A stretch of 64,000 nucleotides of DNA from Paeniglutamicibacter quisquiliarum. Lineage in GTDB: Bacteria; Actinomycetota; Actinomycetes; Actinomycetales; Micrococcaceae. Each line of letters begins with the position of its first letter. The first letter of the stretch is position 1. The notes beneath the pieces were generated by a model. The model was not told the origin of the DNA. It was given only the letters and a program-made list of their open reading frames with translations, and did no database searches. Below are positions 20,883-43,120 of this stretch, piece by piece. The position numbers were made by a program, and so were the translations under genes. The stretch spans positions 591,233 to 655,232 of the forward strand of contig NZ_JAHRED010000002.1 in NCBI RefSeq assembly GCF_019084045.1, given 5' to 3'.

Positions 20883-20895
20883 GGGCGCCCGCCCC

Positions 20896-27776: not shown

Positions 27777-28114
27777 GGGTCTCTCCTTTGCCTTGGGGTG
27801 CCCCAGCTTAAGCGCAGGGCACTCGCCTTTCAAGTGGTCCCGTGGCCTGTCGTGACGGCCGGGAATACCCGGGGTGGTCGCGGTGGCCGCTGGCACGATC
27901 CCCGTTCGGCCCGGACTCCGTTGACGGTGCGGTCCACCGCCCGCCGGCGTACGCGAGTACAAGGAACGGGATCCCGGCGTTGGGCTCGCAGCGCACCCTG
28001 GCTACTTCGGTTGGGCGGTAGCGGAAAACCGAGAATCCCGATATCGGCGGATTTTCGACGTAGTGCCCGGTGACCCACAGCGGCAAACCGTGTCCGGCAA
28101 GGCGTAACACTAAA
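27777..28114. other. Gene-free stretch before the importer operon
   Basis: About 340 bases with no supportable gene on either strand, only short shadow frames. There is no obvious riboswitch fold or tRNA. The right end carries the promoter of the metal/siderophore-type importer. Confidence 0.4.
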
Positions 28115-28129
28115 GCGAATGATTCTCAT
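28115..28129. promoter_or_regulatory. Fur-family-like box in front of the importer operon
   Basis: The 15-mer GCGAATGATTCTCAT lies 20 bases before the permease start and contains the palindrome ATGA-TTC-TCAT. The identical 15-mer, inverted, occurs in the divergent precursor-peptide promoter at 40036-40050. Its core is the typical half-site arrangement of Fur/Zur operators (AATGAGAATCATT). A GATAAC at 28134-28139 may be the -10, placing the box upstream of or overlapping the promoter. Which metal regulator binds is unknown. Confidence 0.75.
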
Positions 28130-28148
28130 ATGCGATAACGTGTCGTGA

Positions 28149-29273
28149 GTGAATGCTTCCCCGATAACCACCCTGGACCCCCCGCGCCCCGCGGCCCCTT
28201 CCTTACAGCCCCCGCCGCACAGGCCCTCCGCCTGGCGGCGGCACGGCACCACCTCGCTGCTGGCCACCGGCATCGTGCTGGTCATCCTGCTCTCCGCCGG
28301 CACCGGCCCGCTGGCCACCAGCCTGCCCGAGGCCGCGAAGATCATCACCGGCCACCTCATTCCGGGCATGGCATGGATGAGCGACGGGTCCATCACCGTT
28401 TCGCAGGACCAGGCCGTCTGGAACTTCCGCCTGCCGCGCACCCTGCTGGCGGGCATCGCCGGGGCCTCCCTGGCCCTGGCCGGTGCGCTGCTGCAGACCA
28501 ACGTCCGCAACCCGCTGGCCGAGCCCTACATCCTGGGCGTCTCCGCCGGCGCCGGGGTCGGCGCGGTGCTGGCCATCGTCGCCGGCTCCACCGCCATGGC
28601 GGGCATCGGCCTAAATGCGGCAGCCTTCCTCGGCGCCGCCGGGGCCACCGTGCTGGTGTACCTGCTGGCCAAGCAGGGCGGGATCATCGCGCCCTCCCGG
28701 CTGATCCTCGCCGGCGTCGCCCTGGGCTCGCTGCTGGCGGCCATCACCAACTTCCTGACCATCACCACCGAGGCGCAGAACGTCTACTCCGTGCTCTTCT
28801 TCCTGCTCGGTTCCGTCTCCGCCGCCAGCTACGGCCAGCTGGTGCTGCCCGGGCTCGCGCTGGCGGTGGTGGGAATCTACGCGATGGCCCGCTCCCGCGC
28901 GCTGAACGCGATGCTGGCCGGGGACGAGACGGCCATCGCACTGGGCGTGAACGTCACCTCCATGCGCCGCACGCTGCTGCTCGCCACCGCGCTGCTGACC
29001 GCCACCACCGTCGCGGTGTGCGGCGGCATCGGCTTCGTGGGCCTGGTCGTGCCGCACGCGGTGCGCATGATCGTCGGCTCGGACCACCGGCGGATGCTGC
29101 CGCTGGTGGTGCTGGGCGGCGCGCTCTTCCTGATGCTCACCGACCTGCTGGCCCGCTCCGTGGCCCAGCCAGCGGAGATACCGCTGGGCATCCTCACCGC
29201 GGCGGTCGGCGCACCCTTCTTCCTCTGGCTCATGCGCACCTCCGGTGCCCGCGCGGCGGGGGTGGGACAGTGA
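28149..29273 (+). CDS. FecCD-type ABC importer permease
   Basis: 374 residues, about ten helices. Family motifs: RLPRTLLAGIAGASLALAGALLQ, NPLAEPYILGVSAGAGVGA, GFVGLVVPHAVRMIVGSDHR (the EAA-like coupling loop), EIPLGILTAAVGAPFFLWLM. Such permeases take up siderophores, heme, cobalamin or other metal complexes. GTG 28149 is used; no Shine-Dalgarno is visible, so the mRNA may be nearly leaderless. It overlaps the ATPase gene by 4 bp. Expression is probably governed by the Fur-like box at 28115-28129, tying it to the RiPP genes facing it. Confidence 0.9.
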   Translation: MNASPITTLDPPRPAAPSLQPPPHRPSAWRRHGTTSLLATGIVLVILLSAGTGPLATSLPEAAKIITGHLIPGMAWMSDGSITVSQDQAVWNFRLPRTLLAGIAGASLALAGALLQTNVRNPLAEPYILGVSAGAGVGAVLAIVAGSTAMAGIGLNAAAFLGAAGATVLVYLLAKQGGIIAPSRLILAGVALGSLLAAITNFLTITTEAQNVYSVLFFLLGSVSAASYGQLVLPGLALAVVGIYAMARSRALNAMLAGDETAIALGVNVTSMRRTLLLATALLTATTVAVCGGIGFVGLVVPHAVRMIVGSDHRRMLPLVVLGGALFLMLTDLLARSVAQPAEIPLGILTAAVGAPFFLWLMRTSGARAAGVGQ

Positions 29274-30100
29274 ACGTCTCCTTCGAAAACGTGTCCGTCG
29301 AGATCGGCGGCCGGCGGATCGTTGACAACGTGTCCCTGGCGGTGCCCTCCGGCACGGTGCTGGGAATCCTGGGACCCAACGGCTGCGGCAAGTCGACGCT
29401 GCTGCGCACCCTGTACCGCGCGCAAAAGCCCTCCGCGGGCGTCGTGCGGGTTGACGGGGAGGACATCAGGACACTGAACGGGCGCGAGGTGGCCCGGCGG
29501 ATCGCCGTGATGGCCCAGGAATCCACCCAGGAATTCCCGATCACCGTCCGCGAGATGGCGATGCTGGGGCGGGTGCCGCACCAGCGCGGCTTCGGCGCCG
29601 ACTCGGCCGCCGACCACGAACTGATCGACGCCGCGCTGCGCGAGGTCGGCGCCGCGCACCTGGCCTCGCGCTACTTCGCCGGGCTCTCCGGCGGGGAAAA
29701 GCAGCGCGTGCTGCTGGCCCGGACCCTGGTGCAGCAGACCCCGGTGCTGGTGCTCGACGAGCCCACCAACCACCTGGACATCGCCTTCCAGCTCGAGCTC
29801 ATGACCCTGGCCACCTCCCGCGGCCTCACGGTCCTCACGGCCCTGCACGACATGAACCTCGCGAGCGAATTCTGCGAGAACGTGGCCCTGCTGCGGGCCG
29901 GTCGGCTGCAGGGCATCGGCCGCCCGCACGAGGTGCTCGACGAGGAGACCATTCGCGCCGGCTTCGGCGTGGACTCTGCCCGGCTCGAGCACCCGCTCAC
30001 CGGCCGCCCGCTGATCGCCGTCGCGAAGCTTCGCGCCGAGGCGCCCGGCGCGCAACCACAAGCCAACCACCACACCGAACCACTCAAGGAACACGCATGA
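29270..30100 (+). CDS. FecE/BtuD-type ABC importer ATP-binding protein
   Basis: 276 residues. Walker A GPNGCGKSTLL, Q-loop VMAQESTQEF, signature LSGGEKQRVLLARTL, Walker B VLVLDEPTNHLD, and switch His in TALHDMNLA. Starts at GTG 29270, overlapping the permease stop (GTGA), and ends overlapping the binding-protein gene (ATGA): a tight three-gene import operon. The His-rich end (QANHHTEPLKEHA) is a minor oddity. Confidence 0.93.
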   Translation: MNVSFENVSVEIGGRRIVDNVSLAVPSGTVLGILGPNGCGKSTLLRTLYRAQKPSAGVVRVDGEDIRTLNGREVARRIAVMAQESTQEFPITVREMAMLGRVPHQRGFGADSAADHELIDAALREVGAAHLASRYFAGLSGGEKQRVLLARTLVQQTPVLVLDEPTNHLDIAFQLELMTLATSRGLTVLTALHDMNLASEFCENVALLRAGRLQGIGRPHEVLDEETIRAGFGVDSARLEHPLTGRPLIAVAKLRAEAPGAQPQANHHTEPLKEHA

Positions 30101-31092
30101 ACAACAAGACCCTGCCCCTGATTTCCGGCCTGCTGCTCGGCGGCACGCTGCTGGCCGGCTGCGGCCAGGCCGTCTCCGCCACCGTGCCCGCAGCCTCGGC
30201 CGGTGCCGCGACAACCATCGAGAACTGCGGCCGCACCCTGGACTTTGCCGGGGTTCCGCAGCGTGCTGTGGCCATGACCCCGGGCCAGTCCGAGATGCTG
30301 GTGCGCCTGGGCCAGGCGGACAAGGTGGTGGCCGAGGCACAAAGCAAGGGCCGGGAACTGATGCCCGAACTCGCGGACCTTGGCACCGCCACGCAGCTGA
30401 GCGAGCAGGGCCCGCCCTCCCGCGAGGTGCTGCTGGGCGTCGCCCCGGACCTGGTCTATTCCCCCACCAGCTACGAATTCACCGCCGAGCAGGGATTCGC
30501 CGGCATCGACCAGCTGGCGGCCGCCGGCGCGCAGGCCTACATTGCCACCGCCGGCTGCTCCGAGCGCCGCGGCAGCGCCGAGGTGAGCGACCTGCTCACC
30601 GACATCGAGAACATGGGGGCTGTCTTCGCGGCGCCGGATGCCGCCGCCAGGCTTGCGGCCGAGGCGAAGGGCGCGCTCGACGGCGTCGGCCAGCGTGTGG
30701 CCGGGCTGGCCAGGCCGACCGTGGCGGAACTCTTCGTGGAGGGCAACACGGTCTCGGCCATCGGGGCAGGCATCGAATACAACATGATCGAGGTCGCCGG
30801 CGGCGAGAACGTCTTCAGCCCCGACGACAAGGCCTTCGCCCAGTTCTTCTCCTCGGTCATCTCCCCCGAGACGCTCGTGGCGAAGAACCCGGACGTCATC
30901 GTCTTCACCACGCTCAACAAGGCCCACGAGAAGGCGACGCTCGACTTCCTGAAGGCCAAGTTCCCGCAGCTGGATGCGGTGAAGAACAACCGCCTGGTGC
31001 CAATCGACTCCGATGACGTCATGCCGGGAACCTGGGGCAACATCCGGGCCGTGGAGCAGATCGCCAAGGGGCTTCACCCCGACGCGTTCTAG
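30097..31092 (+). CDS. Metal-chelate-type ABC substrate-binding lipoprotein
   Basis: 331 residues. Lipoprotein signal MNNKTLPLISGLLLGGTLLAGC (lipobox LAGC), then a class III (helical-backbone) binding protein: ENCGRTLDFAGVPQRAVAM, EMLVRLGQADKVV, and APDLVYSPTSY. The ligand could be a siderophore, corrinoid, F420-0 precursor or peptide-metal complex; sequence alone cannot choose. Context (Fur-like box shared with a RiPP operon) favours the complexed product of that cluster. A strong terminator follows. Confidence 0.88.
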   Translation: MNNKTLPLISGLLLGGTLLAGCGQAVSATVPAASAGAATTIENCGRTLDFAGVPQRAVAMTPGQSEMLVRLGQADKVVAEAQSKGRELMPELADLGTATQLSEQGPPSREVLLGVAPDLVYSPTSYEFTAEQGFAGIDQLAAAGAQAYIATAGCSERRGSAEVSDLLTDIENMGAVFAAPDAAARLAAEAKGALDGVGQRVAGLARPTVAELFVEGNTVSAIGAGIEYNMIEVAGGENVFSPDDKAFAQFFSSVISPETLVAKNPDVIVFTTLNKAHEKATLDFLKAKFPQLDAVKNNRLVPIDSDDVMPGTWGNIRAVEQIAKGLHPDAF

Positions 31093-31119
31093 GCAGATCG
31101 ACCCGGCTGCGGCCGTGCA

Positions 31120-31150
31120 GGCAGGGCCCGTCCCCTCGACGGGCCCTGCC
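31120..31150 (+). terminator. Terminator of the importer operon
   Basis: Perfect 13-bp stem GGCAGGGCCCGTC / GACGGGCCCTGCC with a 5-nt loop, followed by GTCGTTTCC, 28 bases after the binding-protein stop. Confidence 0.85.
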
Positions 31151-31238
31151 GTCGTTTCCGGGAGCCGGCCTCCCGGGGATTCCGGGGACCTTGGTCCCAC
31201 CGTAAGGAGCGCGGGGCAGCCGGAATCGATTGGGGAGC

Positions 31239-31784
31239 CTAGGCGCGGGCCTGCACCAGGTTGGCGAACGGCAGCCTGCCGTGCGCTTGGCGGAATCGCG
31301 CATGGCAGTCGGCCTGGGCCGCGTTGAGCTCCTCGACCGGAAGTTCCTTCCAGGCCACCAGAAGGCTCCCGGCCTCCGCCAGCTGCCAGACCAACCGGCC
31401 GTCCCAGTGACCCGGCGGCTTTCCCTTGCCGAAGTCCACAAATTCCTGGATCTGGCGTCGAAGCCCGCGGTTTCCCTTGCTGCCCGGTCCTGCCTTGCCG
31501 ATGAAGAGGACCTCGGCGTCGTCCACCCATTCGGCGGCAAGCCCGGCCGCCGGAAGGGTGGGATTCTTCTTCTTGAAGATTCCGGCGGTGCTCCTGGCCA
31601 GGTACCGCGGCTCAAACCCCTCGGGCCGCAACACGGCGAACAGTCCCTGGTGTTGCGGAATCCGGTTGATCTCGAGGCCCGTGATGGGCCGGAATCCGGT
31701 GAACCCTTCGTCTTTGAGCGTTTTCTTGTTCAACTGGATCGGATTCCTTGGATCGGCGCGGCGGGAAGGTTGCTGCACATTCAC
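31239..31784 (-). CDS. Hypothetical protein with a GIY-YIG-like segment
   Basis: 181 residues. The central part AEVLFIGKAG ... GLRRQIQEFVDFGKGKPPGHWDGRLVWQL resembles the second half of a GIY-YIG nuclease fold (a YIGK-like strand followed by LRRR). The preceding GIY-like strand is degenerate (GLFAVLRP), so nuclease activity is doubtful. No RBS is visible before ATG 31784. It lies between the importer and the exporter genes on the minus strand, 185 bp after the exporter stop, and probably is not part of the peptide pathway. Confidence 0.55.
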   Translation of the reverse strand: MNVQQPSRRADPRNPIQLNKKTLKDEGFTGFRPITGLEINRIPQHQGLFAVLRPEGFEPRYLARSTAGIFKKKNPTLPAAGLAAEWVDDAEVLFIGKAGPGSKGNRGLRRQIQEFVDFGKGKPPGHWDGRLVWQLAEAGSLLVAWKELPVEELNAAQADCHARFRQAHGRLPFANLVQARA

Positions 31785-31969
31785 CCGCGGGCGCGGCGAA
31801 TTGCACCCTCCGATGCTACCCGCCCGGGCCCGGCAGCCGTGTGCCAGGCTCCCTCGGTGGGTGGCGGGGGCCGCCTGTCCACCCGGCGGGCCCGCCCGCC
31901 CACGCCGGCCGCCCGCACGGGGTACACCGCCAAGGCCCCCGGCCGGTCGAACCCGGAATCCGGGCCCCG

Positions 31970-33676
31970 CTATGCGGGCTGCGCCAGGGGCGCGGACTGA
32001 AGCCCGGCGAGCGCAACCCTGCGGTCGCAGCGCGCCAGCGTGGATTCGCGGTGCGAAATGGTGATGACGGTGGTGTCCCCGGCCAGCGCCGCCACCGCGT
32101 CGAGCAGGAGGGCCTCGGTTGCCGCATCCAGGGAGGCGGTGGTTTCGTCCAGCACCAGCACCCGGGGCCGCAGCAGCAGCGCCCGGGCCAGGGCGATGCG
32201 GGCGCGTTCCCCGCCCGACACCCCGGAGCCGGTCTCACCCACCATGCTGTGCACGCCGGCGGGCCAGCGGCCCGGCTCGAGGTGGAGTCCGGCGCGGCGC
32301 AGGGCTTCCCCGGCCTCGGCGGCCGTGGCGCCGGGAACCGCGAGGCGCATGTTCTCCAACAGGGAACCGTGGAAGATGGTGGCGTCCTGCTCCACCAGGG
32401 TGACCAGCGAGCGGAAGTCGTGCTCCTCGATGGACGCCACATCCACGGGCACACCAGTGCGCGGAACCAGGGCGATGCTTCCGGCATCCGGGGACCAGAG
32501 TCTCACCAGCAGCCGGGCCAGGGTGGTCTTTCCGGACCCCGAGCTGCCCGAGATGCCCAGGTGCTCCCCCGGGGCCACCGAGAGCCAGGTCGGTTCCAGC
32601 GCCGGCGCACCGTCGCGATAGGAGAAACTTGCGCCGTCGACCTCGAGCCCCAGCGGTCCGTCCGCGGCGAACGCGACGGGGGCAGTGGCCCGGGCCCCCT
32701 CCGCCGGCATGGAGATTCCCTCCAGCACGCGGGCCGCGCCGGCACGGTGCGGCTGCAATTGGGTGAGCACGGCAACGGCCTCCATCAGCGGGGAGAGCAG
32801 GGTGAGGGTGCCGGCGACCACCGCCGGGATCCACAGGCGGTCAAGCCCGGGCTGGTTCCAGGCCGCGAGGAACACCACGACCAGGATGCCCAGGGAGCAC
32901 AGTTCGCGCACGCTGGCCGCGGCGCTTTCCCGTGCCTTCAGCCGCCGCTCCGCCCGGGCGACGGTGCGGGTTGCCGCGGCGAGCTGGCGTTGGACCTGTT
33001 CCTGCAATCCGAAGCCGAGGATCTCGCGGGACCCGGCGAGCAGGTCGACGGCGAGGGCGGACTGGTCGGACTTGGCGCGCTGGACCTCCTGGCCCAGGCG
33101 GGCGTTGGAGCGCAGCCACGGCAGGGTGAGCAGCACCAGGGCGGCCAGGCCCAGCAGCCATCCGGCGGCCAGTGTGCCGCCGATCCGGTAGAGCGTCGCG
33201 GTGCCGCCGGCCAGCAGCACCAAGGCGCCGGCCAGCTGGGTGAGCGTGTGGGCGTAGAAGAACTCGAGCTTCTCGGTGTCCCCCATGGCGGTGGCCGCCA
33301 GCCGTCCGGTGTGCTGGCCGGGCGTGCGGGAGGGCACGCCGCGGGAGAACCCGTCAAAGAGGCCCATGCGCAGCGCCGCGAGCACGCGGTAGGCAATCGA
33401 GTGCGACAGGTCCATCTCGTGCCAGGTCAGCACCGCGCGCAGCAGCACCGCGGCGGCCCCGGCAATCCACCAGCCGCCCGGCGCCAGCCGCCCCTCGACC
33501 AAGGCGAGCGTCACAGCGTATGAGCCCGCCACGGCCAGGAAGACCAGGGCCAGGTTGTTTGCAATGCCCACCACTCCGGTCCAGGCCAGGGCGAGGCGGT
33601 GTTCGGCCAGGTGCGGGAGCAGCCCCCACAGCGGGTCGTGCCGGCGCGTGGACGTGTCGGTGTTCTGCGGACTCAT
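31970..33676 (-). CDS. ABC exporter half-transporter (CydC-like)
   Basis: 568 residues: six-helix membrane domain, then a nucleotide-binding domain with Walker A GSSGSGKTTLARLL, signature GVSGGERARIALARALL, Walker B VLVLDETTASLD and switch ISHRES. ATG 33676 overlaps the upstream exporter stop (ATGA), with GGAGG before it. The D-loop Glu is followed by Thr-Thr (ETTAS) rather than Pro-Thr. With its partner it forms a heterodimer of CydDC architecture, but no cydAB genes are present. In this operon export of the modified peptide is the natural reading. It is the last gene of the operon. Confidence 0.88.
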   Translation of the reverse strand: MSPQNTDTSTRRHDPLWGLLPHLAEHRLALAWTGVVGIANNLALVFLAVAGSYAVTLALVEGRLAPGGWWIAGAAAVLLRAVLTWHEMDLSHSIAYRVLAALRMGLFDGFSRGVPSRTPGQHTGRLAATAMGDTEKLEFFYAHTLTQLAGALVLLAGGTATLYRIGGTLAAGWLLGLAALVLLTLPWLRSNARLGQEVQRAKSDQSALAVDLLAGSREILGFGLQEQVQRQLAAATRTVARAERRLKARESAAASVRELCSLGILVVVFLAAWNQPGLDRLWIPAVVAGTLTLLSPLMEAVAVLTQLQPHRAGAARVLEGISMPAEGARATAPVAFAADGPLGLEVDGASFSYRDGAPALEPTWLSVAPGEHLGISGSSGSGKTTLARLLVRLWSPDAGSIALVPRTGVPVDVASIEEHDFRSLVTLVEQDATIFHGSLLENMRLAVPGATAAEAGEALRRAGLHLEPGRWPAGVHSMVGETGSGVSGGERARIALARALLLRPRVLVLDETTASLDAATEALLLDAVAALAGDTTVITISHRESTLARCDRRVALAGLQSAPLAQPA

Positions 33677-35370
33677 GGTGCCTCCGGGGACGTGGTCGGG
33701 ATGGTTTCGCGCAGGCTGCCCTCGTGCAGCCGCAGCACGGTGTCGGCAGCGTCCAGGGCCTCGGCGCGGTGGGCGATCATCACCACGATGCGGTGCCGGG
33801 CCTCGGCGCGCAAGGACTCCATGAGCTCGGCGGCCAGTTCCGGGTTCAGGGCAGAGGTGGGTTCGTCCAGCAGCAGCACCGGACGGTCGGCCAGGATGGC
33901 GCGGGCGACGGCCAGGCGCTGCAGCTGCCCGCCGGAGACCGAGTGCCCGGCCTCGGCGAGGACGGTGTCCAGGCCGGCCGGCCACGCGTCGAGCTCGCGC
34001 GCCAGCCCGGCCTTCGCCAGCGCGCCGCGCATGTCCGCCTCGGTGGCCCCGGGGCGCACGGCCGCCAGGTTCGCCCGGATGGTGCCGGGGAACATGTAGC
34101 TGTGTTGGGAGACGACGCTCACGTCCGCCGCTTGCAGCGGACGGCCGTCCAGCAGGCAGTGCCCGCCGGCGGGAAGGAAGCCGAGCAGGATGTCAAAGAG
34201 TGTGCTTTTCCCGGTGCCCGAGGGACCTGCAAGTGCCGTGATCCCGCCGCGTTGGATGCGCGCGGTGGCCCCGCGCAGCACCCAAGGCGCATCGGGGCCG
34301 TAGCGGAAGGACAGGTTTTCCAGCCCGAGCGTGTGCCCGCCGGCCCGCCGGTCGCCGGCGGTGTGGCCACCTGCCGCGGCCACCCCGGCCGGGGAGGCAT
34401 CGTTCTCGCCGATGGCAGCGTCGATGCTTCCCAGGGCGGAGATGCCGAGGTAGCCGGCGTGCCATTGGCGGGCCAGGTCGCGGACGGGCCGGAAGACCTC
34501 CGAGGCCAGGATGAGCGTGAAGAAGGTGAGGGCAGGTGAGCCGCCGAGCCCCGACGGCAGGGCCCCGAGGACATCGAGCGCGGTCAGCGCCGCGGCGGCC
34601 AGCAGCCCGGCCTGGATGCCGAGGTCCGCCAGGGCGGTGTCGGCCAGCGACACCCTCATGGTCGCGACGGTGGCGCGGTGCAGGGCGTCGGAGCGCGTCT
34701 GCAGCCTGGCCCGGAAGCGCGGGACCGCGTCAAGGACCTTCAGCGTGCGCATGCCCTGCAGTGCCTCGAGGAAGTCGGCGCCCAGGGCCTCGTAGGAGTC
34801 CCAGTGCGTGGATCCGCGCCGGGCCAGCAGCCTGCCCCACAGCCGCGGCGCGCCCACGGCGAGCACGACGGCGGCCAGGAGTGCCGCCGCCAGCACCGGA
34901 TTCAGCGCCGCCACCGCGGCAAGCAGCACCGGGCACAGGATCTGCAGCTGCAGCGCATGCGGGATGTACGCGGTGACGTAGGGTTCCACGCCGTCCGCGC
35001 CCTCGCTCAGGGCAAGCCGGCGCGCCCCGCCGCGTTCGGAGTTGTCGCGCAACCGCTGGGGGCTCAGCAGCGCCGCGGCCAGGGCGGCACGCAATTCCAG
35101 GCGCACCGCGGTGCCCAGTCCGCTGGCCAGCCGGGCCTGGACCTGCTGCAGTGCCGCCCGCAGCAGCCCGCAGCCGAGCACGGCCAGCAGGTTGTGCAGC
35201 ACCTGCACACCGGTGTTGCCCTGGCCGGGCAGCAGCCCGGCGAGCGCGCCGGCGAGGAACCATCCCTGCGCCCAGTAGCTGGCCGTGCCCAGGCAGAGCA
35301 CGGCGGTGAGCGCGTTTAGCCTCCGGCGGTGGCCGCGTGTCAGGGCCATCAGGCGCCTATTGACCAACAT
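33673..35370 (-). CDS. ABC exporter half-transporter (CydD-like)
   Basis: 565 residues. Membrane domain with LNALTAVLCLGTASYWAQGWFLAG at the start, RRGSTHWDSYEALGADFLEALQGMRTLK in the cytoplasmic loop, then the ATPase: GPSGTGKSTLFDILLG, QHSYMFPGTIRANL, HSVSGGQLQRLAVARAIL, VLLLDEPTSALNPE. ATG 35370 has AAGGAC 6 bases upstream and overlaps the dehydrogenase gene by 14 bp; the longer frame to 35469 is not needed. The partner gene follows with a 4-bp overlap. Confidence 0.88.
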   Translation of the reverse strand: MLVNRRLMALTRGHRRRLNALTAVLCLGTASYWAQGWFLAGALAGLLPGQGNTGVQVLHNLLAVLGCGLLRAALQQVQARLASGLGTAVRLELRAALAAALLSPQRLRDNSERGGARRLALSEGADGVEPYVTAYIPHALQLQILCPVLLAAVAALNPVLAAALLAAVVLAVGAPRLWGRLLARRGSTHWDSYEALGADFLEALQGMRTLKVLDAVPRFRARLQTRSDALHRATVATMRVSLADTALADLGIQAGLLAAAALTALDVLGALPSGLGGSPALTFFTLILASEVFRPVRDLARQWHAGYLGISALGSIDAAIGENDASPAGVAAAGGHTAGDRRAGGHTLGLENLSFRYGPDAPWVLRGATARIQRGGITALAGPSGTGKSTLFDILLGFLPAGGHCLLDGRPLQAADVSVVSQHSYMFPGTIRANLAAVRPGATEADMRGALAKAGLARELDAWPAGLDTVLAEAGHSVSGGQLQRLAVARAILADRPVLLLDEPTSALNPELAAELMESLRAEARHRIVVMIAHRAEALDAADTVLRLHEGSLRETIPTTSPEAP

Positions 35371-36631
35371 GGGTTTGTCCTTCCGATTCCTGCGCCCGGA
35401 AACCGAGCGCATGCAGCGTGGTGAGCCCGTCCAGGGTCCCGGTCCATCCGGCCACGGGGCGGAAGGCAAGCTCCCGGACGGTGGACAGGCAGGTGTAGAG
35501 CAAGTGGGCGGCGGCCCCGGCGGCCCACCTCATGGCGGCTTCGTCCGGTTCGGCCTGGGTGCGAAAGAGCAGCATCCCGTCCAGCGACAGGATCCATTCC
35601 TGTCGCGCGCAGTGCAGGTGCAGCTTCCGGTCGATGATTTCTTCCCGGTCCAGGACCACGTACCCGCACCCCGGCGGGGCGGGCAGCGGGTAACCGTCCA
35701 GCAGCCGCTCCCACACCGCCGGGTGTGGGAGGCGAACCGGGTGCGCGGCGCCGGAAACCGGCGGGATAAGTGGCAGGCTGCGCCGGCGCGAGAGTTCCAC
35801 CGCCCCGGGCGCGGGACCCTGCGTCATTTCGCGTTCAGGCCCGGGGTGGAGAAGCCCTGGTCCGGCGGCCCAGCGTTGAATCCAGGCCAAGGTGCGCGGT
35901 TGCCGCTGGGGGCATGGTTGCGGACGGCCGGCGGGCGCGGCAGCGCCGCCCCACCGGGCCAGGTCCGGCAGGTCACCGCCGGTGCCCACGGCCAGTGCGG
36001 CCAGGGGCAGTTCCGGTCCGGTGTCCGGCCAGTGCCGTTGCCACTGCCCATAGCCAGGGAGCCTGGCCGCGGCGGCCAGCGTGGCGGGATCCGCCGTGAG
36101 CCACCGGCTCTCCAGTCCGCGGGCTGCCGCATGGCGGGCCGCTCCCACCAGCGCGTAGGCGGTGTCGGCGAGCAGCAGCGGCAGCGCACGGTGGTGGTAC
36201 TTCGCCGCGGTGCGCTGCGGCAGCACGGTGAACACGAGGATGGCGCCGGCCGCGGCCGGCGCAGATTCGGCGCGGAGGTGCACGGTGGAGTCCCCGGCGT
36301 TGTAGGCGTGGATGCCCGGCGGCACATCGCAGTCGGTGCCGCAGAGCAGGTGCACCTGCACCGGATAGCAGGCCCCGGCGGAGGGGATGGCCCGTTGCGG
36401 GATGCTTCCCGGTGTCCCGCTGGCGGGGTCCGGGTGGAGGCCGCGGGTGGCCCAGAGAGTGTCGAGCACCGCGGCGACCGGCACCGGGGCGCCGGATCGG
36501 CCGGGGGCCGCCTGCGCGGGCGCGTCCCAGGTGTTGTGCCGGGGTCCGGGGTGCGTCATCGGCCCCGGCACCCGGCCGGACCAGGCGGCGGCGAATTCCC
36601 CGCCGGGGTGCGGGTGGCTATCGGGTGTCAT
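35357..36631 (-). CDS. SagB-type nitroreductase-like dehydrogenase (azoline oxidase)
   Basis: 424 residues. In azole peptide pathways SagB/McbC enzymes use FMN to oxidise azolines to azoles. The nitroreductase signature RAIPSAGACYPVQVHLL is at residues 80-96, followed by PPGIHAYNAGDSTVHLR (SagB-like) and HHRALPLLLADTAYALV (FMN-pocket region). The C-terminal ~150 residues (WERLLDGYPLPAPPGCGYVVL onward) form a second, more divergent unit. ATG 36631 has TAGGAA upstream, 5 bp after the YcaO stop. The huge frame extending to 37774 is antisense noise. Confidence 0.82.
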   Translation of the reverse strand: MTPDSHPHPGGEFAAAWSGRVPGPMTHPGPRHNTWDAPAQAAPGRSGAPVPVAAVLDTLWATRGLHPDPASGTPGSIPQRAIPSAGACYPVQVHLLCGTDCDVPPGIHAYNAGDSTVHLRAESAPAAAGAILVFTVLPQRTAAKYHHRALPLLLADTAYALVGAARHAAARGLESRWLTADPATLAAAARLPGYGQWQRHWPDTGPELPLAALAVGTGGDLPDLARWGGAAAPAGRPQPCPQRQPRTLAWIQRWAAGPGLLHPGPEREMTQGPAPGAVELSRRRSLPLIPPVSGAAHPVRLPHPAVWERLLDGYPLPAPPGCGYVVLDREEIIDRKLHLHCARQEWILSLDGMLLFRTQAEPDEAAMRWAAGAAAHLLYTCLSTVRELAFRPVAGWTGTLDGLTTLHALGFRAQESEGQTHVGQ

Positions 36632-36636
36632 GGTTC

Positions 36637-38025
36637 CTACATGTGGGGTGGCGGGGCGAGGGTGAAATGCCCGGGGGCGGTCGGCTGCACGTCCCGCCAG
36701 CCGCGGGACACCGCCGCCTCGGCGACGCGCGGGCAGCCCAGGTAGGCGAAGGCCGCGGGGGCGTTGGGCACCAGCCCGCCGACCACGACCCGCACCACGC
36801 TCAGCCCGGTCATCGCGACGTCCCGGGTGGTCAGCTCGCGGGTGTAGACCTCGTGTCCGGCGCGGGCCAGGCGCCGGTGGACCTCCTCCATGGGCACCGC
36901 GGCCACGGCCTCGATGTCCACCAGCCCGCCTGCCGGGGCCGTGAAGCGCTCGGCCAGCGCGTGCATCTGGGGATCGAGCCACACCTGCACATGGGCTCCG
37001 AGGTCCCGGACGGCCTCGAACTGCTCGCCGGCGTCCTGCAGGTAGCGGCGGTCCTCCCGGTGTTCCAGGTACAGGCCCCGGGCCATGAGTCCGGCCTCGA
37101 CGGCCTGGAAGACCCAGCCCTCGGCATCGGTGGTGCCCTGGGTGTAGATCCAGGTGTGGACCGCCTCGAGCACCGCCTTGCGGGCGGCCTCGGCCGGATC
37201 GTTCTTGCAGGAGAAACCGGCGGCGTAGAGCCCGGTGTCGGGGTCGAACACCAGCGCGGCCATGGACGGGGCGAATTCGCTGGGCATTTGGACCACCCAG
37301 TAGTGGAGCCGGCAGCCCTCCATGGACTGGGCCAGCCCGGGGATCGAGTCGGTGTTGATGCCCCGGGTGGGGCCGTCGAGGTGCCACCACAATTCCAGGG
37401 CGTCGCGTTCGACGGTTTCCAGCAGGGCGCGGTCGCGGGCGTCGGCAAACCCCTGCCCTGTGGCGATCCCGGCGTAGTTGAGGTGGTGGATTCGCGGCAG
37501 GTTGGCGAAGCGCCGTTGCCGCCAGTTCAGGTAGACCAGGCTGGCCGGTAGCCAGACCTCTTGCCCGTCGGCGTTCCGGCGGCAGGAGGTCCAGAGTGTT
37601 TCGGTGTCCTCCTCCAGGTTCCGGTAGGGAAAGTCGGGGCGCTCCAGCTGCCAGGGCGCGAATTGCGGAAGCTGCTGCAACGGGACGACGGAGTGCCCGG
37701 CTGCGCTGAGCTGCCGGGCGCTGCCGATGAAGTGCTCGGCGTCGGGGACCTCGGCCGGGATGAAGTTGCCGCAATAGCGTTCCATGCCCTCGGCCACCGC
37801 CGCGATCCAGGCCTGCCGCTCGTCCCCGAAGGTGGTGCCCAGTGACACGCGGTCCGCCGGCCAGTCCCCCAGCCAGCGGGCGTCGGAGACCTCGGCGGTC
37901 ATGGAGGTGTAGGCGGGAGGCGCGTGCTCGGGGGTGAGCACCGAGCGCACCCGGCGGATGATCCCGGTGTGTTCATCCACCAGGGTGTGCAGCGGCAACA
38001 GGCCAAGGTGTTCGGCTGTGGTCAT
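36637..38025 (-). CDS. YcaO-domain cyclodehydratase
   Basis: 462 residues. YcaO enzymes use ATP to activate peptide amides, making azolines from Ser, Thr or Cys. The ATP/Mg ligand helices are all visible: EGMERY (E79, E82, R83), ETVERDA (E203, E206, R207) and EAVHTW (E287), with FSCKNDPAEAARKAVLEA between. It ends LAPPPHM, a weak form of the Pro-rich C-terminus of azoline-forming YcaO proteins. ATG 38025 overlaps the upstream hydrolase stop (ATGA), deciding the start. Between the hydrolase and the dehydrogenase genes, it is the defining enzyme of the cluster. Confidence 0.93.
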   Translation of the reverse strand: MTTAEHLGLLPLHTLVDEHTGIIRRVRSVLTPEHAPPAYTSMTAEVSDARWLGDWPADRVSLGTTFGDERQAWIAAVAEGMERYCGNFIPAEVPDAEHFIGSARQLSAAGHSVVPLQQLPQFAPWQLERPDFPYRNLEEDTETLWTSCRRNADGQEVWLPASLVYLNWRQRRFANLPRIHHLNYAGIATGQGFADARDRALLETVERDALELWWHLDGPTRGINTDSIPGLAQSMEGCRLHYWVVQMPSEFAPSMAALVFDPDTGLYAAGFSCKNDPAEAARKAVLEAVHTWIYTQGTTDAEGWVFQAVEAGLMARGLYLEHREDRRYLQDAGEQFEAVRDLGAHVQVWLDPQMHALAERFTAPAGGLVDIEAVAAVPMEEVHRRLARAGHEVYTRELTTRDVAMTGLSVVRVVVGGLVPNAPAAFAYLGCPRVAEAAVSRGWRDVQPTAPGHFTLAPPPHM

Positions 38026-39053
38026 GGGGATACTTCGCATTCTGCTGGGACGGGTGGGTTGGTCGCGGCTCGCAGCCGCGCGCGCTCGGACGGTTCCCAG
38101 GGATCGGTGCCGATCCGGGACGGGTTGAAGTCAAGGGTGAAGGGGAGCGCCGCGGAACGTTCCAGGAACTCCCGGATCCTGGCCATCAGGCCGCCGTGGC
38201 CGCGCAGCGTTGACGCGGCGGAGGGGTCGAGGTCGGCGGTGAGCCGGTGGCCCCATGGGCCGGTGAGGAATCCGGTGTTGCCCGCATCCCAGGCGTCTGC
38301 CAGACCGAGCGCCTCGTGGACAAAGAAGTCCCGGTGCCCGGAGACCACCAGCAGCGGCGTTTGGCAGCTTCCGTAGCGGGCGGCCAGGTCAAGCCTTGGC
38401 GCCGACCACAGCCTGTCCCATTGGGCGGGTGCGTGGGCACCGTAGGTGTGCGCGGGCATCGCGCCGGCCACGCCGCGTTCCCTGGCCGCGCGGCACCGGC
38501 GGTCGAGCTCGGCGGGTGCCAGCGGCTCCCGGGATTCGGCGCCGAACCCGTGCATGTGCCACCAGCCGATGCGGTCGCGCAGGCGTGCGGTTCCGTCGGG
38601 GTCTCGGGCGGTCTCATGGAGGCCGAGGGCCGGGACCATGGCGACCACGGCCGCGGCACGCAACGGCCCCCCGCCGGTTTCGAGGCACCGGGCCGCCTCG
38701 AGGGCGCAGTGCGCATCGTAGGAGGCCCCGGCCAGGATCAGTCCGCCGTCCAGCAGGCCCCCGCGCTCCAGTAGGCGCGCGGTTTCGGCCCCGTCGCGCC
38801 CCTCGGTCGCGTAGGGCAGCCATGCTCCGGCGGAACCGTAACGGCCGCGGACGTCCTGGACGACCACTTCATGGCCCTGCGCCTGCCAGGCGCCTGCCTG
38901 GGCGCGGTATTGCCGCCGATCGTACGGAGTGCGGATCAGCACCGTTCCCCGCCCCGCCTCTTGGCCGGAGCGATAGTGGTCGCCCGCCAGCACGGTGCCG
39001 TCCTCCAGCGCGAGGTCGAGTCTTGTGGGTGCGGGACCGGAAGCGGGCTTCAT
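38022..39053 (-). CDS. CocE/NonD (S15) family alpha/beta hydrolase
   Basis: 343 residues. RTPYDRRQYRAQAGAWQAQGHEVVVQDVRGRYGSAGAW is the typical X-Pro dipeptidyl-peptidase/CocE opening. The triad is visible: nucleophile Ser111 (GASYD), Asp242 (GHRDFFV), His269 (GPWGHR). It lacks the usual C-terminal jelly-roll domain (343 rather than ~550-650 residues). Start 39053 and stop 38022 both overlap neighbours by 4 bp, so it belongs to the peptide operon. It may trim the peptide or hydrolyse an ester/amide in the product; a role in leader removal is possible. Confidence 0.85.
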   Translation of the reverse strand: MKPASGPAPTRLDLALEDGTVLAGDHYRSGQEAGRGTVLIRTPYDRRQYRAQAGAWQAQGHEVVVQDVRGRYGSAGAWLPYATEGRDGAETARLLERGGLLDGGLILAGASYDAHCALEAARCLETGGGPLRAAAVVAMVPALGLHETARDPDGTARLRDRIGWWHMHGFGAESREPLAPAELDRRCRAARERGVAGAMPAHTYGAHAPAQWDRLWSAPRLDLAARYGSCQTPLLVVSGHRDFFVHEALGLADAWDAGNTGFLTGPWGHRLTADLDPSAASTLRGHGGLMARIREFLERSAALPFTLDFNPSRIGTDPWEPSERARLRAATNPPVPAECEVSP

Positions 39054-39790
39054 CGTCGGGGACCGGGGCGCTTTGCCGGTTCGGCAAATCCCAGCACCGG
39101 ATGTTCGCTGCTGCACAATGTCCGGGTGTCGAACCGCCAGAGTGTGCGGCGCAGGGCGGCCAGCTCGCGCGTGTCGTATTGCCACGCGGCGACCATGGAG
39201 CGGATCCTGGCGCCAAGGAATTGGGTGGCCAGTGCGGGCAGGCCGTCGAGGGTTCCGTCACCGGGCCGGGCAGCATCAAGCCATCCGTCCAGTTCGTCGG
39301 CTGCCGCGGAGGCGGCCAGCCGGCGGCGCAGCACCTGCGAACCGCTGGGGTCGCCAGGGGCCAGCGCGAGTGGATCCACAAAGAGGATCTCGCCCTCGCG
39401 GTAGCAGCGCAGCACCGCGGTGCCGGCGTCCGGCAGGTCATCCAGGAGCCCGCGGTCCGCCGGGGTTGCGGCAACCTGGACAATCAACCCGCCTGTTGCC
39501 TCCGGTATCCCGCGATAGTCGAGGTTCTGTACGTCGAGCCCAGTCAGGGCCGTGCTCACCGGTTCCCATCCGGCTTCCGGGGCAAGCAAGGCAACACTTT
39601 CACGCCCGGTGCGCGGTTGCATTCTTTGGGCTGCCCGGGCCTCGAGTTGCTCGCGGATTTGGCCATGAAAGGTCTCCAGCATGGGTAGCGGCGCCCCTGT
39701 GGGCGCCTGCACGCGCAGGAAGGTGCCGTCAGGGGAACGCACCGTGGTGCGTCCGTTGAGCTCGAAAACCTCGACTGCCGGGATACTCAT
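39050..39790 (-). CDS. Putative leader-peptide-binding partner of the YcaO enzyme (TOMM/RRE-like)
   Basis: 246 residues with no clear similarity I can name. The N-terminus (AVEVFELNGRTTVRSPDGTFLRVQ) looks like the small beta-rich recognition element that binds RiPP leaders, and the C-terminal WRFDTRTLCSSEHPVLGF recalls the end of azole-pathway partner proteins (SagC / TOMM leader-binding type). There is no recognisable full ThiF/E1 domain and no Zn-binding CxxC pair. It is the first gene after the precursor and hairpin, has AAAGGA before ATG 39790 and overlaps the hydrolase gene by 4 bp. The assignment rests on position plus weak resemblance. Confidence 0.5.
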   Translation of the reverse strand: MSIPAVEVFELNGRTTVRSPDGTFLRVQAPTGAPLPMLETFHGQIREQLEARAAQRMQPRTGRESVALLAPEAGWEPVSTALTGLDVQNLDYRGIPEATGGLIVQVAATPADRGLLDDLPDAGTAVLRCYREGEILFVDPLALAPGDPSGSQVLRRRLAASAAADELDGWLDAARPGDGTLDGLPALATQFLGARIRSMVAAWQYDTRELAALRRTLWRFDTRTLCSSEHPVLGFAEPAKRPGPRR

Positions 39791-39823
39791 GGGTCCTTTC
39801 AAGAATGTTGGTTCGGGGGCGCA

Positions 39824-39862
39824 CGACTGCGGGGTGGATGCCAAACATCCACCCCGCAGTCG
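39824..39862. terminator. Strong hairpin between precursor peptide and biosynthetic genes
   Basis: Perfect 17-bp inverted repeat (arms 39824-39840 and 39846-39862, CGACTGCGGGGTGGATG and complement) with a 5-nt loop, 11 bases after the precursor stop and before the next gene. It lacks a T run on the minus strand, so partial read-through is expected. This would give far more precursor mRNA than enzyme mRNA, as in many RiPP operons. Confidence 0.9.
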
Positions 39863-39873
39863 CGAATGGGCGA

Positions 39874-39975
39874 TTAGTCGAACGGGTTCTCGACGAGCGC
39901 GTTCGAGTGGGTGGCCGACAGGTGGGCCAGCTGCTCGGTCTCTTCAACTTCTGCAAGTACCACGGTGTTTTCCAT
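39874..39975 (-). CDS. Candidate RiPP precursor peptide (33 residues)
   Basis: ATG 39975 to TAA 39874, with AAAGGAAACCCC directly before the start: an excellent RBS. Residues 1-17 are an acidic, Glu-rich leader (six Glu/one Gln, with LAEVEE in the middle). The tail HLSATHSNALVENPFD (18-33) is a plausible core, with heterocyclisable Ser20, Thr22 and Ser24, no Cys, and His18 and His23 framing them. A promoter with a Fur-like box stands upstream and a strong hairpin downstream, and the YcaO/SagB genes follow. No function outside this context is apparent. The leader/core boundary is inferred. Confidence 0.8.
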   Translation of the reverse strand: MENTVVLAEVEETEQLAHLSATHSNALVENPFD

Positions 39976-40000
39976 GGGGTTTCCTTTCGTAGGTGATGTC

Positions 40001-40051
40001 GTTGCCGTTCTGGCAACAAGAAGACACTATACTTAATGAGAATCATTCGCA
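40001..40051. promoter_or_regulatory. Divergent promoter with Fur-like box for precursor operon and propeller/peptidase operon
   Basis: The octamer ACTATACT (40026-40033) gives overlapping -10 hexamers on both strands: TATACT on plus and TATAGT (40026-40031) on minus. Immediately beside it is the palindrome AATGA-GAA-TCATT (40035-40047), inside the 15-mer ATGAGAATCATTCGC shared with the importer promoter. For the minus-strand promoter the box falls between -10 and -35 (TTTGCG region), a classic repression position. A small hairpin GTTGCC/GGCAAC (40001-40017) would lie in the precursor 5' leader. Confidence 0.8.
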
Positions 40052-40073
40052 AACAACACGTCATGGAGGCGTC

Positions 40074-41306
40074 ATGAAACAGGAAATACTCGTCGTGGCC
40101 GACCAGCGGGCCCACGCCATTGGCTTCATCGATCCCGCGTCCCGCGCGGTGACAGGCTGGATCCCCGGCATGGTCCTTGCCGAGCACGCCGGGATCCTGT
40201 CCCTGGGCAACGGCCGATGCGCCTGGGTGGACGATGCGGGCGGATCCCTCATCGTCATGGATCCCTTCGCCGCCACCGGCACGGAACCCGCGGCGGCGAT
40301 CGACCACCGGATTTCCGTCGCCATCCCGGGCGAGCACCTGGCCTGCGACCCCGCCGGCCGGTACATTGCCGTCAGCACGGGGCTAGGGCAATCGTGGGAA
40401 CCCTGGAGCGACGTGCTCAGCGTCGTGGACCTGCAGGCCGCGTCAGGTCCGTACTCCCGCCGGATCCGCACCCGGGCCGGCGAGCCCGGCGTCGTGGTCG
40501 CCGCCACGCCCGAGGGCCCGCGCGCGGTCTTGCGGCACCGCGAACCCGGAGCCATCGAATCCATCTCCGTCGATGACATCCTCACCCTTGGCGTACACAG
40601 CCCGGAGCTGCGCGGCGGGATCCACGAAGCGGTCGGGGCACAAGGCCACGGGGATGCCTACGACCCCGATACGGGCACCCTGTTCGTGGCCACCGAACGC
40701 GGACTCGAGTGCTTCGACGTGGGCGGACCGGTGCCGGAACCCCTCCCCATGCGGCCCTGGGAGGCGGCGGGCCGCGCCTACTTCCTGCGCCTTTGTACCC
40801 GGCGGCGCCTGCTGGTGGCCGTGCTGCGCGAAGGCGGGGAGCACCCGCGCAAATGGGACACCTGGGGCAATACGCTGTGGGTCCACGACATCGATGCCAA
40901 CACCTCGCGCACGGCGCCTCTGGGCGACGGGATGATCTTCCGCTTTGCGCTGACCGGCACCGCCATTGCCGTGGCCCGGATCCACCCGGACGGCGACGAC
41001 CTGCGCGTCTACGACACCGAAACCCTGCGCGAGCGTGGCCGTTGGACGCTGCCGCCGATGGACAAGGCGCCGCGCCGCGGCGCCGAACCGTGGGACGACG
41101 CCGACCGCCGGGCAATCGCGGCCTCGGGCGCCGATGAATGGGTCGCGGTGACCCGGGGCGGGCACGGCGAGGTGCACCTGGTCGACACCGGGGATCCCCG
41201 GTCCGTGCCGGTCACGGTGGAGGTTCCCACCCCGCTGGGCGACGGCGGCCACCTGGCATGGCTCGACCGCGCCGACGCCGGGCCCGGGGACCTGGTGGGA
41301 CGATGA
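40074..41306 (+). CDS. Cytoplasmic beta-propeller-like protein of the RiPP locus
   Basis: 410 residues, no signal peptide. Repeating blade-like segments (VVADQRAHAIGFIDPASRAVTGWIPG; RYIAVSTGLGQSWEPWSDVLSVVDL; GTLFVATERGLECFDVGG; TLWVHDIDANTSRTAPLGDGMIFRFALTG; DLRVYDTETL) fit a YncE/WD40-like propeller. No catalytic motif is recognised. GGAGG lies 4 bases before ATG 40074. It shares the Fur-box promoter with the precursor and overlaps the S9 peptidase gene by 4 bp, so it probably acts with that peptidase, e.g. as substrate adaptor. It is not a family I can name. Confidence 0.7.
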   Translation: MKQEILVVADQRAHAIGFIDPASRAVTGWIPGMVLAEHAGILSLGNGRCAWVDDAGGSLIVMDPFAATGTEPAAAIDHRISVAIPGEHLACDPAGRYIAVSTGLGQSWEPWSDVLSVVDLQAASGPYSRRIRTRAGEPGVVVAATPEGPRAVLRHREPGAIESISVDDILTLGVHSPELRGGIHEAVGAQGHGDAYDPDTGTLFVATERGLECFDVGGPVPEPLPMRPWEAAGRAYFLRLCTRRRLLVAVLREGGEHPRKWDTWGNTLWVHDIDANTSRTAPLGDGMIFRFALTGTAIAVARIHPDGDDLRVYDTETLRERGRWTLPPMDKAPRRGAEPWDDADRRAIAASGADEWVAVTRGGHGEVHLVDTGDPRSVPVTVEVPTPLGDGGHLAWLDRADAGPGDLVGR

Positions 41307-43120
41307 CCCGGGCCATCGACGCGGCCGGCCTGGAGCTGGGGGAAAAGCCCGCGCTCCACGGGTACTTTCGGACCCAATTGCTGCACTGGGACTCGGCGCC
41401 GCGGCAGGGCATGCCGCAGCTCGCCGGCGGCAACGCCGTCTTCACCTGGCGCAGCCCGGGGGAGGAATTCCCCGCGCTCTACCGGGTCGCCGATGACTGG
41501 CTGTGCCGGGCCCTGGCCCCGGGCAACGCGCCCGAGCCCCCGCCGGCCGGCTCCGCGCTGCCGGTGCCCGCGAACCGGGTGGTGCGCGGATTCGCCCTCG
41601 ATCCCTCCGGCACTCGGGTCGCCGCGCTGCTCGGCCCGGCGGACACCGAACTGGCCGAGGTCTGGCTGCTCGCTCCGGGCGCCGCTCCCGTGCAGCTTCC
41701 CGGCCCCCGGTCCTGGCATGCCGCCCCGGTGTGGTCGCCCGGTGGCACCTCGCTGTGGGTGCTCTCCGGAAGGCCGCCGGAACAAGCCATCTGGCGCTGC
41801 GGGTTTGGCGCGGACGGACCTGCCTCTCCCCCGGAGCCGTTTCCGTTCCCCGGGGAACTCGGAACCCCGGGGCCCGGGGAACGGCTGCGCCTGGGAATCG
41901 GGGACGGCACGCTGCAACTCACGGCTCGCGCCCCCGGAAAGGGTGCACGGCGCTGGCTTCTCCGGGACGGCGACTGGATCCTCTCAACGGCGCCGGACGC
42001 GGTCCACCACGAGGTCCCGGGGTGCAAGGTGCTGGCCCGGGTCAGTGGCGAGCACGGAAACCTGCTGGCCACGGAGGGTCCCACCGGCACCCGGGTGGCC
42101 CTGAATGGGGAAACGCTGTGGGAGCTGGAGGCCGCCGAGCAGCTCACGGCCCTGTCGGTGAGCACGCATCCGGACGGTGCTGCAGTGTGGATCCAGAGCG
42201 CGTCCCCGGAGCGGCCCTCGGGTGTCGTCTGCCTGCAACGCCCGGCAGCAGCCAAGTCCGCCACGCAGTTGCCGCCGCGCAGGAACCCGGCCGAGTTCAG
42301 GCACCTGCGCCTGCTGGCCCCGGCCCGGGACTCGGTGGAGATCCCGGTGATTCTCTCGGCGCGAGCCGGGGACCTGGCCGCGGACATGCCCCTGTCCCCG
42401 CGGCCGCTGCTGCTCTCCTGCTACGGGGGCTTCGGGGTCGTGCACCGCACCGAGCCCGAACCCAGCGTGGCCGCGTGGATTGCCGCCGGCGGAATCCATG
42501 TGGCGGCTCAGGTGCGCGGAGGCGGGGAACTGGGTCGGCAATGGCACGAGGCCGGACGCGGGGCCAACAAGTTGCGCGCCGTCCACGACCTGATCGACGT
42601 GGCCCGCTTCCTGGTGGCGCAGGGCTGGACCGGCGCCGCGGAACTCACCGCGGTGGGGGCCTCCCATGGCGGTCTGGTGGTCAGTGCCGCCGCATTGCTG
42701 GATCCCGGCGCGTTCGGCCGCGTGATAGCGGTGGCCCCGTTGCTGGATACAGTGGACCTGCAGCGGCACGGGCTGGGATCCCAATGGCTCCACGAGTTCG
42801 GTGCCGACGGGGAGACCTCCGAGCAACAACGAGCCGCCCACTCCCCGCTCCACCTCCTGGCCGCCCGGGAGTCGGCGGCTGATCTCCCGCCGCTGCTGTG
42901 CTGCGTGCTCGGCAGCGACGAACGGGTCGACAATGCCGCGGCCGTCGAATTCGTGTCGGGGATCCGGAGCCGGGGCGGCCGGGCCTGGCTGCGCCGGGAG
43001 GACGGCGGCGGACATGCCCAGCGGTCATCCGCAAGCCTGCTGGATTTCTCCGCCACTGTGCTCTCCTTCGCGGCCGGCAACGGGGACGGGTTGCCGCGGA
43101 ACCCGGCCTCCAGCCCCTAG
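41303..43120 (+). CDS. S9 family prolyl-oligopeptidase-like serine peptidase
   Basis: 605 residues: degenerate N-terminal propeller (~residues 90-320, e.g. WHAAPVWSPGGTSLWVLSG), then the alpha/beta-hydrolase domain. The triad is complete: Ser454 in GASHGGLV, Asp539 in GSDERVD, His571 in GGGHAQ. YGGFGV and QVRGGGELGRQWHEAG are hallmark prolyl-oligopeptidase (S9A) segments. No signal peptide, so cytosolic. Co-transcribed with the propeller gene from the Fur-box promoter opposite the precursor; leader removal or degradation of the imported peptide are the plausible jobs. Its stop shares CTAG with the convergent regulator gene. Confidence 0.9.
   Translation: MTRAIDAAGLELGEKPALHGYFRTQLLHWDSAPRQGMPQLAGGNAVFTWRSPGEEFPALYRVADDWLCRALAPGNAPEPPPAGSALPVPANRVVRGFALDPSGTRVAALLGPADTELAEVWLLAPGAAPVQLPGPRSWHAAPVWSPGGTSLWVLSGRPPEQAIWRCGFGADGPASPPEPFPFPGELGTPGPGERLRLGIGDGTLQLTARAPGKGARRWLLRDGDWILSTAPDAVHHEVPGCKVLARVSGEHGNLLATEGPTGTRVALNGETLWELEAAEQLTALSVSTHPDGAAVWIQSASPERPSGVVCLQRPAAAKSATQLPPRRNPAEFRHLRLLAPARDSVEIPVILSARAGDLAADMPLSPRPLLLSCYGGFGVVHRTEPEPSVAAWIAAGGIHVAAQVRGGGELGRQWHEAGRGANKLRAVHDLIDVARFLVAQGWTGAAELTAVGASHGGLVVSAAALLDPGAFGRVIAVAPLLDTVDLQRHGLGSQWLHEFGADGETSEQQRAAHSPLHLLAARESAADLPPLLCCVLGSDERVDNAAAVEFVSGIRSRGGRAWLRREDGGGHAQRSSASLLDFSATVLSFAAGNGDGLPRNPASSP

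Follow-up and report, generated by a model that had tools for sequence, protein, structure and literature searches.

The 64,000-nucleotide stretch of the Paeniglutamicibacter quisquiliarum genome analysed here (the window; contig NZ_JAHRED010000002.1, positions 591,233 to 655,232 of the forward strand) holds, between its positions 28,115 and 43,120, a gene cluster for a ribosomally synthesized and post-translationally modified peptide (RiPP) that is, with near certainty, a member of the streptamidine (ami) family. The ami operons are preceded by a site matching the box of the regulator Zur and, judged from sequence, it is highly probable that they are under Zur control, the metal of the switch very probably being zinc. 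Given this site, the peptide is likely made at zinc shortage. The gene cluster itself was already known and the Zur-type switch is the new part. An initial annotation of the same DNA had proposed a metal-responsive azole-type RiPP system of undescribed layout; the RiPP and the metal-type operator were borne out, whereas the azole type and the undescribed layout were not.

The precursor encoded in the window, MENTVVLAEVEETEQLAHLSATHSNALVENPFD, scores 65.9 bits against the NCBI model NF040714 'streptamidine family RiPP' (cut-off 40), its core HLSATH is identical to the streptamidine core, and the gene set amiA-B-C-D-E-T1-T2 is present in that order. All parts named by the initial annotation stand where it placed them in the 64-kb window, as follows:

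28114..28128, unstranded: Zur-type box before the importer, AGCGAATGATTCTCA, two mismatches to TGANAATNATTNTCA, 20 bp from the permease start
28149..29273, plus strand: importer permease, FecCD family (PF01032, 288.9 bits; best NCBIfam match TIGR03869, 256.1 bits, below the cut-off of 437.35)
29270..30100, plus strand: importer ATPase (PF00005, 116.3 bits; best NCBIfam match TIGR03873, 281.4 bits, cut-off 372.4)
30097..31092, plus strand: importer binding lipoprotein of the metal-chelate (BtuF/FecB-like) class (PF01497, Peripla_BP_2, 76.4 bits)
31970..33676, minus strand: ATP-binding cassette (ABC) half-exporter, AmiT2-like (CydC/CydD-like, below cut-offs)
33673..35370, minus strand: ABC half-exporter, AmiT1-like (CydD-like, below cut-off)
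35357..36631, minus strand: AmiE-like dehydrogenase, weakly SagB-like (TIGR03605, 27.5 bits, cut-off 78.4)
36637..38025, minus strand: AmiD, YcaO protein (PF02624, 157.3 bits; TIGR03604, 214.5 bits, cut-off 219.25)
38022..39053, minus strand: AmiC-like CocE/S15 hydrolase (TIGR00976, 77.5 bits, cut-off 66.3; PF02129, Peptidase_S15, 64.1 bits)
39050..39790, minus strand: AmiB-like protein of 246 residues, no family, placed by position and similarity to relatives
39874..39975, minus strand: amiA precursor of 33 residues, MENTVVLAEVEETEQLA-HLSATH-SNALVENPFD (NF040714)
40026..40031, minus strand: -10-like TATAGT of amiA, by eye, 5 bp from the box
40037..40051, unstranded: Zur-type box between amiA and the propeller gene, TGAGAATCATTCGCA, one mismatch to TGANAATNATTNTCA
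40074..41306, plus strand: predicted propeller protein, by eye
41303..43120, plus strand: S9 peptidase (PF00326, Peptidase_S9, 94.4 bits)

From the divergent promoter, the minus strand reads precursor, AmiB-like protein, CocE/S15 hydrolase, YcaO protein, dehydrogenase and two half-exporters, with the propeller protein and S9 peptidase on the plus strand, while the three-gene importer (permease, ATPase and binding protein, 28149-31092) is convergent to the exporters and apart from the propeller operon. The profile matches of the lipoprotein are to iron-complex, haem and B12 binding proteins. AmiB and AmiE were assigned by position and by similarity to relatives; the AmiB-like protein, for which no family match and no convincing solved relative was found, gave an AlphaFold model with a pLDDT (predicted local distance difference test score) of 81.8, and the SagB assignment made initially for AmiE survives in a weak form. 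The YcaO protein is 90% identical to that of an Arthrobacter. Its glutamates E79/E82, E203/E206 and E287 are invariant in 25 aligned sequences and would be the ATP-site residues.

Russell et al. described in 2021 amiA-E and amiT1-T2 together with a four-gene importer, amiF1-F4 (PMC8442711), and the ami cluster of S. albidoflavus J1074 has the MIBiG entry BGC0002115. The initial statement that no described system has this layout is thus superseded, the published importer being a different one. Since the published product of the same HLSATH core is a six-membered amidine in which Ser and Thr are unmodified (PMC8442711), the window cluster is not classed as an azole RiPP; this structure and the NF040714 match rule out an azole-type (linear azole-containing peptide) reading. 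Klebsazolicin and bottromycin likewise carry amidine rings made by YcaO proteins, but they have other precursors, and klebsazolicin blocks the ribosome whereas streptamidine showed no antibacterial activity (PMC8442711). In the 2021 study streptamidine-type precursors outnumbered every other peptide family near standalone actinobacterial YcaO proteins, and the gene content of ami clusters is stated to vary (PMC8442711). With the J1074 cluster the window shares the precursor family, the HLSATH core, amiA-B-C-D-E-T1-T2 and a Fec-type importer; it differs in that the importer has three genes, with one permease, and stands apart, instead of the four-gene fecBCDE importer, which is not in the window, and in the S9 peptidase and propeller genes divergent from amiA. 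Given that published gene content varies, the three-gene importer is considered a variant and no reason for exclusion from the family. From its place in Streptomyces-type loci, amiX, which lies upstream of the importer in the published cluster, may be the propeller gene. The available text of the 2021 paper names no regulator or Zur box (PMC8442711).

The distribution of the cluster was followed in 80 relatives of the YcaO gene, the best 80 of 202 stretches encoding one, down to about 60% identity. In 73 of the 80 (70 loci first, three added later) amiA is present, which upholds the RiPP claim; among the remaining seven, six are truncated at a contig end and in one (L010) no copy is seen. In even draws, amiA occurs in 3/396 genomes of the phylum and 6/396 of the order. 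The 80 precursor copies comprise 11 distinct 19-residue stretches, in which the two His and Ser3 of the core are invariant, as are the SN and NPF that follow, and core position 2 varies; the search string fixed only ALV and P, after a preselection of the copies with a somewhat longer motif. An importer of the window's type is carried by 28 of the 80 relatives, whereas Streptomyces-type loci have a different four-gene Fec-type importer between the propeller gene and amiA, so that two importer types, at about 60% and about 33% identity to the window permease, are tied to ami. The S9 peptidase was not found in Streptomyces-type loci. Two tandem core copies stand in amiA of ten loci, mostly from Nocardiopsis (L009, L013, L015, L017, L019, L020, L026, L030, L032 and L034), one Micrococcales-order genome holds three amiA copies (L133-L135; G143: C5:68941, C5:7758 and C1:9259), the third of which, close to a contig end, lacks a box and has just propeller gene fragments next to it, and the Rhodococcus rhodochrous plasmid pNit (L108) has a complete-looking ami cluster with a box at -94 before amiA.

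The 15-mer GCGAATGATTCTCAT, part of a 7-1-7 palindrome, stands at 28115 and, on the opposite strand, at 40036, before the importer and the divergent precursor as initially described, and these two boxes are the only sites in the 64 kb with two or fewer mismatches to TGANAATNATTNTCA. Shuffled sequences and control stretches place the box beyond chance. Within 40-130 bp before amiA, the best TGANAATNATTNTCA match has two or fewer mismatches in 68 of 73 relatives and three in the other five (65 of the first 70 loci, with 8, 29 and 28 at 0, 1 and 2 mismatches, and 3/3 of the added loci); dinucleotide shuffles reached two or fewer in 20/7000 and one or fewer in none. In 18 representatives from 16 named genera the box carries 1.42 bits per column, compared with 0.33 and 0.41 in its flanks. 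As these sites had been aligned on the pattern, from which part of the box's bits per column comes, a null of shuffled sequences aligned in the same way was added as a correction, and its 300 trials gave a mean of 0.39 and a maximum of 0.55 bits per column. The ami loci hold 138 sites with two or fewer mismatches in 1.51 Mb (20, 62 and 56 at 0, 1 and 2), against eight, all with two mismatches, in 1.6 Mb of control sequence consisting of 80 evenly spaced 20-kb stretches from three genomes; one control genome (G003) carries an ami cluster and the places were shifted to omit that region. Nine further amiA places lie outside the 80 loci, some possibly from the same species, and seven have a box with two or fewer mismatches.

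The placement of the box follows the arrangement of the operons. In 20 of the 28 loci with the window-type importer, the importer follows the propeller and peptidase genes on their strand and a box precedes the propeller gene; 19 of these 20 importers have no box of their own. In eight loci the importer stands apart (L002-L005, L007, L010, L012 and L018), as it does in the window, and seven of the eight have their own box with two or fewer mismatches, L018 having one with three. In the Streptomyces-type loci a box with two or fewer mismatches lies between the propeller gene and the importer in 42/42, with another before amiA, and across all types the propeller gene is preceded by such a box in 68 of 70 testable loci. 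The box travels with the operons through rearrangement. In the main group neither of the refuting outcomes named initially, for the metal link and for the RiPP claim, went against the initial reading. At L017:15989, directly behind the exporters, a mismatch-free box precedes what by eye is the gene of another chelate-type binding protein.

The ami box fits the S. coelicolor Zur motif tGaNNatSatNNtCa, a 7-1-7 palindrome obtained by chromatin immunoprecipitation (PMC5472717); a 21-bp version of the Zur box is described for C. glutamicum and other Actinobacteria (PMC2823685). In the window genome nine places match TGAGAATNATTCTCA with two or fewer mismatches, against two for the reversed control: the two ami boxes, a tandem pair before aztD (NF038015, 403.6 bits, cut-off 400), one before an MRF-like gene, one before a CobW-like gene and three not tied to zinc. 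A looser pattern gave 12 places in S. griseus, S. calvus, Nocardiopsis metallicus and Microbacterium oxydans, against four for the reversed control, and ten of the 12 belong to ami or to zinc genes. Five stand at ami and two precede ZnuA-type genes, one of these genes being recognised by family scan and the other by eye; another zinc-type binding protein gene has one in front of it, a Fur-family and an MRF-like gene have one between them, one lies among MRF-like, L31B and S14 genes, and the remaining two are elsewhere. In these assignments ZnuA-type, MRF-like and CobW-like denote best matches below curated cut-offs, while AztD, S14 and L31B are above theirs. The two boxes before aztD are 50 bp apart (L142:6143-6207; G000:C1:575142 and 575192). 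Zinc-starvation-type genes (MRF, S14, L31B, CobW, ZnuA or AztD) were also found in the flanks of 19/80 ami loci and of 0/80 controls (tblastn, E 1e-10, within the fetched flanks), with one Streptomyces group having them in the left flank, a second in the right flank, and several isolated cases besides. For six of the 19 the match is weaker or partial (L007, L011, L042, L058, L070 and L081; 27-43% identity, or a short stretch), and because the loci are related the independent neighbour events are fewer than 19.

Several observations count against the reading favoured here. The relatedness of the loci also means that the box counts are not independent, and one further amiA copy (L109) has only a three-mismatch site while another (L107) is without a box; the latter is the third copy in its genome and lies close to a contig end, next to propeller fragments. 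In the window genome the looser pattern at one mismatch gives two places against three for the reversed control, so that there only the placement of the boxes, and not their number, speaks. Finally, a more distant group of seven motif-B loci, found in 394 drawn genomes of the class, keeps a FecCD-type importer in 7/7 and has the same box near the precursor in only 1/7; the zinc claim is for this reason restricted to the motif-A group. In five of the seven motif-B loci a related palindrome, cGGAAATGGTTTCCg or near it, was seen by eye in a similar place. A scan of four motif-B genomes for it found no znu or ribosomal gene among the hits inspected; it was tied only to a CooC/ArsA-like ATPase gene, which has a Zur-like box in S. 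calvus (L102; L147).

Zinc-controlled biosynthesis, as judged from the box, an exporter and a chelate-type importer occur together in this locus. Given the Zur box, the cluster's own exporter and an importer whose binding protein is of the chelate class, the simplest reading is a zinc-carrier system, and the balance of the evidence leans towards a Zur-repressed RiPP that is secreted as a zinc carrier and recaptured by its own chelate-type importer. The gene content, the precursor, the conservation and placement of the box, the boxes at zinc genes and the neighbours are observed directly in the DNA, while Zur binding, a response to zinc, zinc binding by the product and the parts played by propeller protein and peptidase are predictions. 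The initial annotation had suggested a peptide metallophore, of which the metal-type operator is well supported; the metallophore itself is still inferred, and the published tests of metal binding and starvation were negative. Metal import had been suspected in 2021 because of the Fec-like genes, the biological role being left unknown (PMC8442711). Yet purified streptamidine bound none of seven metal ions including zinc, and an amiD mutant grew like the wild type under metal starvation (PMC8442711), results for which any carrier role must account. The best NCBIfam models of the importer, moreover, belong to a 'putative F420-0 ABC transporter' set, although below cut-off; some genes annotated in this way may in fact import peptides or chelates.

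It is possible, though less likely, that the cluster is under Zur and the peptide carries no zinc, being instead a zinc-starvation signal or developmental cue that is retaken by the importer. Zur control fits this equally well, and the 2021 paper, which found no metal binding, suggests signalling or development as the role (PMC8442711). It accounts less readily for an importer whose binding protein is of the metal-chelate class, and for the coupling of two different chelate-type importers to ami. That the box is read by another Fur-family protein (FurA/CatR-like), with a signal other than zinc, is improbable: 7-1-7 palindromes are common in the Fur family and two Fur-family genes are present in the window genome, but one of the two is beside znuCB-like genes (by eye), boxes of this kind stand before aztD, znuA-type, MRF-like and S14/L31B genes across several genera, and the zinc-starvation-type neighbours of ami point the same way. 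An iron siderophore system, which the published names fecBCDE and 'iron transporters' would suggest by gene family alone (PMC8442711), is the least probable of these explanations, since the box is of the Zur kind, the chrome azurol S (CAS) assay of streptamidine was negative (PMC8442711) and no DtxR-like box was found in the 300 bp before amiA in 70 loci, the best sites having 8-10 mismatches of 19 to the DtxR consensus and shuffles 6-11.

For the favoured zinc-carrier reading, the following sequence of events is suggested. When zinc is sufficient, Zn-Zur would sit on the box beside the -10 element of amiA and on the importer box, and a drop in zinc would lift repression from the importer and both divergent operons. 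AmiB, AmiC, AmiD and AmiE would then cut and cyclise AmiA, and AmiT1/T2 would export the peptide; after binding zinc, a step proposed here for the product, the loaded peptide would be captured by the lipoprotein for import, and release of the zinc and trimming of the peptide may be aided by the propeller protein and S9 peptidase.

A more tentative proposal, for which the case is the weaker one, is that this is the first ribosomal-peptide zinc carrier and that the streptamidine of 2021 is its spent, zinc-free fragment, which remains once a larger, AmiE-oxidised peptide that holds SNALVENPF has been imported and trimmed. In the published work the dehydrogenase AmiE is essential yet streptamidine is not oxidised, deletion of the importer leads to loss of streptamidine, and HLSATH, HLSAT and HLSA are all seen as products (PMC8442711). 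A spent fragment would explain the need for AmiE, the loss of streptamidine on importer deletion, the HLSATH/HLSAT/HLSA ladder and a fragment that binds no metal, and may in this way reconcile a carrier role with the negative metal tests. The usual alternative to a larger peptide is that the conserved SN/NPF part is a recognition follower, and, given that the importer is directly upstream of amiA in Streptomyces-type loci, the loss of streptamidine on importer deletion could also be a polar effect.

The propeller protein, called as such by the initial annotation, is encoded where expected; because no Pfam or NCBIfam match was above cut-off, 'propeller' is a reading by eye. Six His columns (H38, H88, H155, H192, H304 and H393) are conserved in 86-100% of 22 relatives, and the protein occurs in 3/396 genomes, the same three as amiA. 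Zinc binding by this protein is a guess. A relationship to AztD was considered and rejected, as comparison with the AztD of the same genome gave no significant similarity (E 0.87) and a convincing solved relative was not found.

Two other features of the window were noted. A 181-residue open reading frame beside the exporters (31239-31784) matches no family and was not seen in any of the 80 relatives. Upstream, at 15607-23310, there are arsenic-type genes (an FAD oxidoreductase and an arsenate-reductase-like gene) and a formate-dehydrogenase-like gene, all by eye.

Methanobactin and bufferins are ribosomal peptides linked to metal handling, for copper and with other modifying enzymes; in contrast to them, the AmiA of the window is without Cys. 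A literature search, with subscription papers mostly outside its range, found nothing joining streptamidine with Zur; among the matches listed, only PMC8442711 studies streptamidine, and no RiPP zinc carrier was apparent by title or abstract start. The closest likeness in regulation is to coelibactin of S. coelicolor and ethylenediamine-disuccinic acid (EDDS) of Amycolatopsis, where zinc-carrier biosynthesis is under a Zur box as here (PMC5472717, PMC12161575), although these are not ribosomal peptides and the zinc-carrier role of ami is inferred. It has been argued that such regulator sites are an aid in assigning a metal to a metallophore cluster (PMC12161575), and the conserved Zur-type operator makes the unknown role of streptamidine directly testable. 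If the carrier role is true, bacterial zinc carriers would include ribosomal peptides besides opines, EDDS and non-ribosomal peptides, and the propeller protein would count as a new zinc-starvation protein.

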